From Methanomicrobium sp. W14 (GTDB lineage Archaea; Halobacteriota; Methanomicrobia; Methanomicrobiales; Methanomicrobiaceae), in the NCBI RefSeq assembly GCF_017875315.1, contig NZ_JAGGMM010000001.1, forward strand, positions 930,001 through 994,000: a DNA stretch of 64,000 nucleotides, read 5' to 3'. Both the position numbers and the translations under genes were made by a program. Shown one piece after another: positions 43,774-46,650 of this stretch (position 1 is the first letter of the stretch; each line of letters begins with the position of its first letter). The notes under the pieces are model-generated. The model saw only the letters and a program-made list of their open reading frames with translations. It did not search any database and was not told the DNA's origin.

Positions 43774-46650
43774 TTACATAAAATAAAGGTCGTCATCCCT
43801 GCCGGACTTAATGCCGCCCTTTTTAATATCCTTTTTTCCATCATCAAAGCTGCTATCCTTTTTTGCCCCGGGAGGGGCAGGATTTTTACCTACCTTTATT
43901 TTTTTGTCCAGCGCTTCCTTCGGTTTTACAGGATTGGAACTCACTTTAAGTTTACCGGACAGCGCCTCATTTGGCCTTGCTGAAGAGCCAACCTTTACTC
44001 CGCCTGACAAAAGCTCCTTTGGCTTTACTCCATGACCTCCGGCATTGACTTTTCCGGACATAAATTCCTTCGGCTTTATTCCAGAACTTGTCTTTATTCC
44101 CCCTGATAACAACTCGACAGGCTTTTTCGACTGGTTTTTAACCGACAGCCTGCCTCCTTCCATATTGTCTTTGGGTTTGATATTCGGATGAAGAGAGAGC
44201 TTTCCGCCTGAAAGACTTTTCTCTTTCGCACGTATATTAGGCCTTATGGATAGGCCCGAACCTCCAAACGCATTGTCATTTGGCTTTTTTACCGAACCTG
44301 CAGAGAGTTTTCCCCCTGTAAAGGCATTATCGTTCGGCCGGATGAAAGACCCTCCCGACAGTTTTTTACCGGAGAAAACATCGTCATTGCAGTGCTTGAA
44401 CGAACCGCCGATGCTTATCCTTTCACCAACTCTTGCAACGTCACTTCTCTCCCGGGGTATCCCCGGCCCCTTTATCTCCTGGGCACCGAATATAGTATCT
44501 TTAGGGGCATGACCTCCGCCTACAGACGTCATTCTGGTCATATCAAGTTCACTCCTCCGGGAGCGTCCAGGAAGATTGATACCGTTGTTGTCCTTTTTCT
44601 TCTCTTTTTTGCCTGCAATTAAAATTTTGTCGTCATGGACCTGCGGTTTCTTGTTCAAAGATTCATTTTCAGTCTTTGATTCGTTATACTCATCGATTTC
44701 GTCCTTTTTCACAAATTCAGAGGAGGTAAGAGGTATGTTTTCCTGGTTTTCGTCATCATCATCGGAAAGATAATCAAATGCTGCTTCCGAAAAACGGGCG
44801 CTTTTTGCATGACCTGAATTCCCAACATCTTCCGGTTCGCCGAAACCGCTGTTGTCCTCATCTGAAAGGTATTCAAACGCAGCCTCCGAAAAATGGGCGC
44901 TTTTTGCAGACCCGTAATTTTCAGATTCTTTTGCACCGTCAAAACCGCGGCTGTCGTCGTCATCCAGAAGCTCTATGAAGGATGTTGAAGAATCCTTCTC
45001 CTCTGTCCCGAAACTGTTGTTGTCCTCAAAAGAACCGCCACCGTTTTCCAGGAAGTCGTCTATTTCCAGTTTTTCTGCGTGATTTTCGTAACTGTTCTGT
45101 TCAAAACGGTAATTTTCGGGATTTTTATTATTGTTATACAGGGGGTATTCATTCTGCCGCCTGTCAGTATAATAGTCATTTCCATCAATTACAGGTGGGA
45201 GATTTGAATTTTTGGGCTGGCTTGGCGGGACCGAGGAACAGCCCCCTATTAATTCCCATGCCTCGTCCTCAACGGCTTTTTCATCATAACTCTCACTGTT
45301 CTGGTAAGGCACGGGGTTTTCATATTCACCGCCGGGATAATTTCCATATTGCGGTGAAGTCTGTTCATAATACCCCGCCTGATAACCGGCCACGTTTTCT
45401 GAAGCGTTTGTACCGGGAGTTTTTTCGACAGGAGCCTTCCCGGAGAGAAGAAGCATCTCCTCTTCTTCAAGAACTTTTGAATATTCTTCCGCCTTTTCGT
45501 GTTCTTCCTTTTCCAAAAGATATTCCTCTCTTAATTTTTTTATCTCCTCAAGACGCGGGATGTTGTGAATACCTGAAAGCATGATGATTATCCCGACGTA
45601 ACGGGTATTCCTGACAGGATAATCCCCGGAACGCATTTCAAGACCGGCTATGCTTGAGTCTATCCACTTTCGGACTGTCTGAAATCCCTTCATTGACAGC
45701 TCTTTTGAGGGCCCCGCAATAAGGACAAGCGCCTTGTCAGCACTTGTAAGATCACACGGAATCGATATGTCCTCGTAAACGGCCTGTTTTGCAAGCCCGA
45801 CGATACGTGTTGCACGTTTGTGAGACCCTTCGCTGAAATGAGTCTCAGGCCGCCACCTGTCAAACACTTCAAGCCAGTTCGCAGGCAGGTCTTCGATTGC
45901 ATATCCTATTGCAGTCATCCCATTTCCCTTGAGGGTGTTCAGGATTTCCCCAGCATCAAGGACTATCTCGGCTGATTCCAGACCGGCTTCGTTGAACTCC
46001 CCGGCCCTTAAGAGAAGACCGACCTGGCGGGATATCCTTTCGTTGAGCATATAATATATGTCACGCGGGTTGTCAGGGAATGACTTTCCATATGGAGAAG
46101 GCTTTACGACAGGCTTTCCGTGTTCGTCCAGGGTCGTTTCAAACGAGGCTTTAATTTTACGGTACCAGGTCTCGTTGTCAAAAAGAATTACGGCATCGGT
46201 ACTTTCTTTGATGATATCAAGGTCGTCTGCGGCTTTTTTTGCAACAGCCCTTCCCTCGCGGAGATACGGAAGTGTGCAGACCGCAAAGACAGGCTCGAAA
46301 AAGGACTTTTTTACCTCTTCTGTAAGTTCAGGGATGACGTCCCCAAGGCTTCCCCCAAGGCCAACAAAAATAATTATGGCATCGATGTCGATGTTGTCCA
46401 TCTTTTTGACCCTGGACATGACCTCCTTAACATCGACGGTCGACTTCACATCAAAATTGACGTCAGGGTCGAGAGCCGGGAAAAATATCTTTGCATCGTC
46501 AGGCAGGTTTTTTAGCTGTGACAAAAAGTTTCCGTCCATATCGATTACGACGGAAGAAAGACAGCTTACGCTGCTGCGCCTGTCCTGATAGTACAGCTGA
46601 TCCACTATCCGCGAACCTGCCCCGCCCAGACCTATAGCAAGTATCCTCAT
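43774..46650 (-). CDS. Divergent tubulin/FtsZ-like GTPase with long repetitive tail
   Basis: A 958-residue protein. Residues 1-390 are a tubulin/FtsZ-like GTPase: T1 loop IGLGGAGSRIV (about 6), T4 signature FVGLGGSLGD (about 105; FtsZ has GGGTGTG), and a T7-like VLDAGEI before LKGNGMTAIG (about 230; FtsZ has NxDxxD, so the Asp and an acidic residue are kept but the Asn is lost). Residues about 390-740 are acidic and low-complexity, with a duplicated block AKSAxFSEAAFxYLSD. Residues about 743-925 hold ten or so basic repeats of 15-19 residues (LSGG-x-x-x-x-PNDNAF type). The C-terminus is SGRDDDLYFM. It is neither canonical FtsZ nor CetZ; a cytoskeletal role is inferred. Confidence 0.75.
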   Translation of the reverse strand: MRILAIGLGGAGSRIVDQLYYQDRRSSVSCLSSVVIDMDGNFLSQLKNLPDDAKIFFPALDPDVNFDVKSTVDVKEVMSRVKKMDNIDIDAIIIFVGLGGSLGDVIPELTEEVKKSFFEPVFAVCTLPYLREGRAVAKKAADDLDIIKESTDAVILFDNETWYRKIKASFETTLDEHGKPVVKPSPYGKSFPDNPRDIYYMLNERISRQVGLLLRAGEFNEAGLESAEIVLDAGEILNTLKGNGMTAIGYAIEDLPANWLEVFDRWRPETHFSEGSHKRATRIVGLAKQAVYEDISIPCDLTSADKALVLIAGPSKELSMKGFQTVRKWIDSSIAGLEMRSGDYPVRNTRYVGIIIMLSGIHNIPRLEEIKKLREEYLLEKEEHEKAEEYSKVLEEEEMLLLSGKAPVEKTPGTNASENVAGYQAGYYEQTSPQYGNYPGGEYENPVPYQNSESYDEKAVEDEAWELIGGCSSVPPSQPKNSNLPPVIDGNDYYTDRRQNEYPLYNNNKNPENYRFEQNSYENHAEKLEIDDFLENGGGSFEDNNSFGTEEKDSSTSFIELLDDDDSRGFDGAKESENYGSAKSAHFSEAAFEYLSDEDNSGFGEPEDVGNSGHAKSARFSEAAFDYLSDDDDENQENIPLTSSEFVKKDEIDEYNESKTENESLNKKPQVHDDKILIAGKKEKKKDNNGINLPGRSRRSELDMTRMTSVGGGHAPKDTIFGAQEIKGPGIPRERSDVARVGERISIGGSFKHCNDDVFSGKKLSGGSFIRPNDNAFTGGKLSAGSVKKPNDNAFGGSGLSIRPNIRAKEKSLSGGKLSLHPNIKPKDNMEGGRLSVKNQSKKPVELLSGGIKTSSGIKPKEFMSGKVNAGGHGVKPKELLSGGVKVGSSARPNEALSGKLKVSSNPVKPKEALDKKIKVGKNPAPPGAKKDSSFDDGKKDIKKGGIKSGRDDDLYFM

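Follow-up and report, generated by a model that had tools for sequence, protein, structure and literature searches.

The window analysed here, a 64,000-nucleotide stretch of the 2.54-Mb genome of Methanomicrobium sp. W14 (contig NZ_JAGGMM010000001.1, positions 930,001 to 994,000), carries on its minus strand a gene for a long protein with a tubulin-like core and an extended, repeat-rich tail (Table 1). The open reading frame reported in the preliminary description is real; it starts with ATG and encodes 958 amino acids followed by a stop codon. We refer to the product as the tailed CetZ. Besides it, the same genome encodes FtsZ1, FtsZ2, a canonical CetZ of 390 amino acids and a 1088-amino acid Tubulin_2 protein. 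The latter is of the FtsZl type (Tubulin_2, 4.8e-13) and is encoded on contig 2 (L006:1428-7054) in a likely operon with two further genes, one for a 521-amino acid membrane protein with a weak GTPase-like match, the other for a 263-amino acid protein predicted to be secreted or membrane-bound. We take this locus to resemble the gene neighbourhoods of FtsZ-like families described by Makarova and Koonin.

Table 1. Features of the tailed CetZ gene and its product, with positions in the window.
Feature	Residues	Position	Strand	Basis or remark
Tailed CetZ paralogue gene		43774..46650	-	958 aa; stop codon included in span
Tubulin/CetZ core	1-366	45553..46650	-	Pfam Tubulin 2-165 and CetZ_C 198-372; AF2; Foldseek
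Site of deleted T3 loop region	~57-72	46435..46482	-	Alignment with canonical CetZ and FtsZ
Altered T4 loop, FVGLGGSLGDVI	95-106	46333..46368	-	GGGTG absent in 92 orthologues
Retained T7 loop and start of H8, AEIVLDAGEILNTLKGN	227-243	45922..45972	-	LDxxE in 90/92; identity 0.86
Long charged helix after the core	365-402	45445..45558	-	AF2 full-length model, pLDDT ~79-85 over 371-400
Acidic low-complexity segment	409-655	44686..45426	-	58 D/E, 16 K/R
99-bp tandem duplication (two acidic-block copies)		44759..44955	-	Tandem Repeats Finder
Conserved tail motif DMTRMT	703-708	44527..44544	-	D[ILM][TS]R across tails
Basic repeats with P[KN][DE]	716-925	43876..44505	-	40 K/R, 18 D/E
Conserved C-terminal tip RDDDLYFM	951-958	43777..43800	-	Order consensus DD[GD][IL]xW[I]

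Domain searches, structure prediction and phylogeny all place the protein in the CetZ family. The match to CetZ_C (PF21011) is strong (3.6e-44, 150.8 bits vs a cut-off of 21.6), the Pfam Tubulin GTPase match is weak (1.2e-11), and the score against the NCBIfam FtsZ equivalog model TIGR00065 is 31.6 bits, below its cut-off of 295.2. When the core was modelled with AF2 (pLDDT 81.9, pTM 0.83), Foldseek ranked Haloferax volcanii CetZ1 first (4.4e-29), together with CetZ2 (2.5e-24), and the same two proteins came out on top when the PDB was searched by sequence. In maximum-likelihood trees, in which CetZ was sampled outside the Thermococcales, the tailed proteins group as a single clade (97/98) on a long stem branch within CetZ and apart from FtsZ1/FtsZ2; the split from FtsZ reached 100% in a quick tree. 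The protein is hence a divergent CetZ paralogue with a tubulin/FtsZ fold, and it represents no group outside the known families. The membership of the tubulin superfamily and the position outside FtsZ put forward in the preliminary description are borne out by the predicted fold and by the phylogeny. Its further suggestion of a separate methanogen tubulin group needs rewording: the subfamily is distinct and spans a whole order, but it nests inside CetZ. One Methanosarcina-like genome encodes a third tubulin-like protein (L217), which was considered as a relative and rejected; its GGGTGTG is intact and its sequence is FtsZ-like.

Alignment with CetZ and FtsZ shows where the core has changed. 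The tailed proteins have a deletion of the T3 loop region, which reads VKGHGVGTDN in the canonical CetZ of the host. The T4 sequence GGGTGSG is replaced by GG[STN][MVL][VIA][DE], which is one residue shorter, and the T2 Asn has become Asp. In the window protein, T4 reads GLGGSLGD (residues 97-104) and T7 reads VLDAGE (residues 230-235); the corresponding motifs are GLGGGTGSGG and VVDSSE in the host's canonical CetZ, and GGGTGTG and LDFADV in FtsZ. Both motifs were previously noted to depart from FtsZ and CetZ, and they do so, but the change in T7 is mild, with Asp and Glu kept. The T3 deletion, which went unmentioned, is larger than either. Among 92 distinct orthologues none has GGGTG and none has a GxGxG-type T3, and in 80 of 91 the fourth residue of T4 is acidic. 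By contrast, 91/92 retain the T6 Asn and 90/92 the LDxxE of T7, the T1 glycines are conserved, and the new T4 pattern, GLGG[STN][MVL]x[DE], is itself conserved. Because the canonical T3 GHGVG and T4 GGGTGSG are absent throughout, the protein is best filed, from its sequence, as a divergent CetZ paralogue and not as a canonical CetZ GTPase. The label "GTPase" given earlier is accordingly doubtful, as 92/92 lack the T3 and T4 loops by which canonical CetZ binds phosphate. Loss of the key pocket motifs, one mark of a pseudo-GTPase of the non-binding class I, is evident in the sequence. Some ligand binding by the core is nevertheless possible, given the retained T6 Asn and the new, conserved pattern of T4.

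The nucleotide loops have drifted more than H7, T7-H8 and H10. When tailed and canonical CetZ from eight genomes were compared side by side, identity among the tailed proteins was 0.37 at T3, 0.60 at T4 and 0.62 at T2, and 0.92 at H7, 0.86 at T7-H8 and 0.91 at S8-H10-S9, whereas canonical CetZ stayed at 0.92-0.97 in all six elements (for residues 53-72, the T3 region, 0.37 vs 0.97). Columns that are invariant in canonical CetZ averaged 0.62 in the nucleotide loops of the tailed set vs 0.92 in H7/T7/H10 (Mann-Whitney p = 2e-8). In tubulin-family polymers, T7 of the next subunit completes the GTP site of its neighbour. Given this role of T7, the drift of the loops and the conservation of H7/T7/H10 form the pattern expected for a subunit that has been freed from holding GTP and in which selection still maintains a T7 side for contact with a neighbour. 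The pattern is suggestive of such a subunit; the conservation of H7 and H10 may be due in part to the stability of the fold and not to an interface.

The tailed CetZ is a constant feature of one order of methanogens. Orthologues (E below 1e-90) are present in 57 of 60 relatives, the remaining three being genomes that are at most 88% complete. The named genera are Methanomicrobium, Methanoculleus, Methanofollis, Methanogenium, Methanoregula, Methanocalculus and other Methanomicrobiales; other records are labelled Euryarchaeota only, and one metagenome record is labelled Thermoplasmata. In a phylum-wide search of 295 genomes, all 55 genomes of the order carry the protein with at least 302 bits each, the best match beyond Methanomicrobiales reached 171 bits, and no comparable protein was found outside the order. 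Each of the 55 also has at least one further CetZ match, the canonical CetZ. The two are connected by co-occurrence alone, with neither a shared operon nor co-loss found. Across the order, the conserved neighbours are, by sequence reading, a Mer-like reductase gene and a GalT-like gene on the divergent side and NrpR-like, dCTP deaminase-like and large VWA/Ig-like surface protein genes on the convergent side. None of these conserved neighbours is an operon partner of the tailed CetZ, and in the window this order-wide arrangement is disrupted.

The tail spans 111-769 amino acids across the orthologues and is lost in part of one family: frames of at most 445 amino acids with little or no tail occur in 11 of the 55 order genomes, all in family f5, one genome has an intermediate frame of 473 amino acids, and the other 43 have frames of 543-987. 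Within f5, L086-L089 have lost tail and tip and kept the core that lacks T3 and T4, a natural deletion experiment; because the core persists there, not every function can require the tail. In the window the tail measures about 586-592 amino acids, so that the long tail described previously is present and somewhat exceeds the approximately 570 residues then given. The core passes directly into the E/K-rich helix (residues 365-402). Beyond it lie the acidic segment and then a short conserved block, and the basic repeats and the tip complete the tail. The conserved block, DMTRMTSV..APKD, is clearest in families f1 and f3, and its D[ILM][TS]R motif occurs in 33 of 88 tails, among them every tail of f1 (21) and of f3 (4).

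Two earlier statements on the tail concern its acidic and basic parts. The acidic block is indeed duplicated, as a 99-bp tandem repeat; among the relatives compared, two copies occur in the window only, and close relatives, where they have the block, carry one. The basic repeats are also there, although we count about 12-13 with a spacing of 16-18 residues over residues 716-925, instead of about ten of 15-19 residues. The tripeptide P[KNR][DE] was found 322 times in 88 tails, compared with 77.6 expected from composition-preserving shuffles, and the repeats are therefore not due to chance. An extreme form of the array is seen in family f6 (L083:4750-7098), where the tail carries near-perfect RPKETDGHIRMSG repeats. 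At the C-terminus, Trp lies within the last four residues of 78 of 88 tails, while it makes up 0.2% of residues elsewhere in the tails; the window protein, ending in DDDLYFM, has Phe in place of the Trp of the consensus DD[GD][IL]xW[I]. Bundling of filaments through the acidic-then-basic order, as suggested earlier, may occur; however, it is the repeats and the tip that are conserved widely in the tail, whereas the duplicated acidic block is particular to the window. In close pairs, dN/dS is 0.12-0.29 for the tail and 0.02-0.11 for the core, and hence both are under purifying selection. The low pLDDT of the tail supports disorder only weakly, because the shallow alignment of the full-length AF2 run also lowered confidence in the C-terminal half of the core.

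The overall layout recalls archaeal FtsZ1 and FtsZ2, which likewise have a core, a disordered linker and a short conserved C-terminal peptide, and some tailed CetZs share with them a tip of the form [GS]ID[WF]I. Unlike the tailed CetZ, FtsZ1 and FtsZ2 have intact GTP loops, and they belong to another family by both tree and C-terminal domain. The linker of bacterial FtsZ is several times shorter (tail of 68-104 amino acids, PMC9939409). The archaeal FtsZ tip is centred on a nearly invariant GID motif and is bound by SepF (PMC8178401). The tip of the tailed CetZ resembles it in position and pattern; some members end in GIDWI or SIDWI, but GID itself is found in few, and in most T, S or F replaces the D. 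SepF is encoded once in 59 of 60 order genomes, and no dedicated SepF paralogue was found in them. By analogy with FtsZ, binding of the tip to SepF is a reasonable guess, an uncertain one because most tips lack the Asp of GID.

The group nearest to the tailed CetZ in the tree is the second CetZ of Archaeoglobi (L201-L203, 313-324 amino acids; support 85/94). These proteins, too, have lost T3 and T4 and kept the T7 Asp, and they share an E[IL]SM[KE]G signature with the tailed CetZ, but they have no tail, have lost T6 as well and sit on a much longer branch. CetZ_C is present in them, and the one that was scanned had no recognisable Tubulin GTPase domain. The sister relation suggested by the sequences is not decisive. 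Branches are long here, and the AU test did not reject a tree that joins the tailed proteins to the canonical CetZ of their own order (p = 0.21). The split and the T3/T4 loss may therefore be older or younger; an order-specific duplication of canonical CetZ is not the origin that we prefer.

As to what the protein does, its sequence points to a probable role in capping or tethering the filaments of ordinary CetZ, and not to one in consuming GTP itself. The full mechanism that we favour, with confidence that stops just short of an even balance, is that of a pseudo-GTPase with one-sided assembly, which docks on canonical CetZ filaments and whose tail tethers partners. Canonical CetZ would make the GTP-driven filament. 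The eroded pocket of the tailed CetZ would no longer bind or hydrolyse GTP normally, and its retained T7 face could dock on the GTP face that a canonical CetZ subunit exposes, such that it would join the filament at one end as a cap, or as a minority subunit. The disordered tail might then act as a tether with multivalent repeats along its length, its FtsZ-like C-terminal peptide binding a membrane-anchored adaptor, with SepF as first candidate, or another envelope partner.

The same loss of the GTP loops, combined with a long multivalent tail under selection, would also fit a CetZ-derived scaffold or adaptor that works away from CetZ filaments, with the core as dimer or monomer and the tail gathering partners. 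We regard this as unlikely though credible, as the T7/H8 and H10 elements of the longitudinal contacts are strongly retained and canonical CetZ is constantly present alongside. Somewhat more doubtful is a divergent CetZ that is still active, binding and perhaps slowly hydrolysing GTP with a rebuilt T4 loop and polymerising with itself, with a tail that bundles and tethers the polymers, much as the preliminary description had it. The conserved T1 glycines, T6 Asn and T7 Asp/Glu speak for such activity, as does the new T4 pattern, whose conservation suggests a function; against it, the T3 loop region is wholly lost, an acidic residue replaces the GGGTGSG core, and the nucleotide-loop columns drift where others do not. 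That the protein is a divergent FtsZ, or belongs to some tubulin-like family other than CetZ, is hardly tenable: the weak Pfam Tubulin score and the long stem branch could hint at one, but the strong CetZ_C match, the FtsZ equivalog score, the nesting in CetZ and the best structural matches (CetZ1 and CetZ2) speak against it.

A more far-reaching version of the docking model, which we consider improbable and offer as speculation, takes the Archaeoglobi proteins into account. The tailed CetZ would be an ancient nucleotide-free subunit of the tubulin superfamily that predates the split between Archaeoglobi and Methanomicrobiales, an obligate non-hydrolysing partner of canonical CetZ that caps or spaces the filament and, through its FtsZ-like tail and SepF, tethers it to the envelope. 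Such a subunit could be likened to one half of the tubulin heterodimer or to a pseudoGTPase septin. The septins of class I, such as Spn7, provide the best mechanistic precedent, in that a filament subunit, once duplicated, has lost its nucleotide pocket and stays in hetero-oligomers (PMC10731463). They differ in belonging to an unrelated, eukaryotic GTPase family, and hetero-assembly of the tailed CetZ is our inference. ARC3 was considered as a plant analogue and dropped, the ARC3 literature examined containing no description of its GTPase motif.

Compared with canonical CetZ (H. volcanii CetZ1/CetZ2; PF00091 and PF21011), the tailed CetZ shares the fold, CetZ_C, the T6 Asn, the T7 Asp/Glu and the H7/H10 motifs. 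It differs in the absent T3 and T4, the T2 Asn to Asp change, a variable insert before H7 and, in most lineages, the long repeat tail; the canonical tip is of the [ID]EPLF type. Brown and Duggin (2023) state in their main text that each complete Methanomicrobiales genome analysed has two CetZs, one Halobacteria-like and the other deep-branching, and suggest possible functional pairs (PMC9856176). The tailed CetZs are most likely their Non-Halobacteria-like CetZ of Archaeoglobales and Methanomicrobiales. We found no mention of the loop loss, tails, repeats or tip in the main text of that study, nor of these features in the relevant passages of a family-evolution study (PMC9871819); within these texts, the T3/T4 loss, the tail, its repeats and its tip have no prior report that we found and appear to be new.

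Prokaryotic relatives of tubulin are usually seen as polymerising GTPases. Here, one methanogen order conserves a CetZ without GTP loops in which selection acts on one assembly face and, in most lineages, on a long tail. Should the protein join canonical CetZ filaments, archaea would provide an example of a subunit that became specialised by losing its GTPase function, as in alpha/beta-tubulin and the septins, and the protein would offer a handle on the attachment of CetZ filaments and on the role of CetZ outside the haloarchaea. Pairing of CetZs possibly has a parallel in two haloarchaeal genomes (G251 and G320), which carry tandem CetZ pairs (L200 and L204) whose second copy is divergent but keeps GGGTG.
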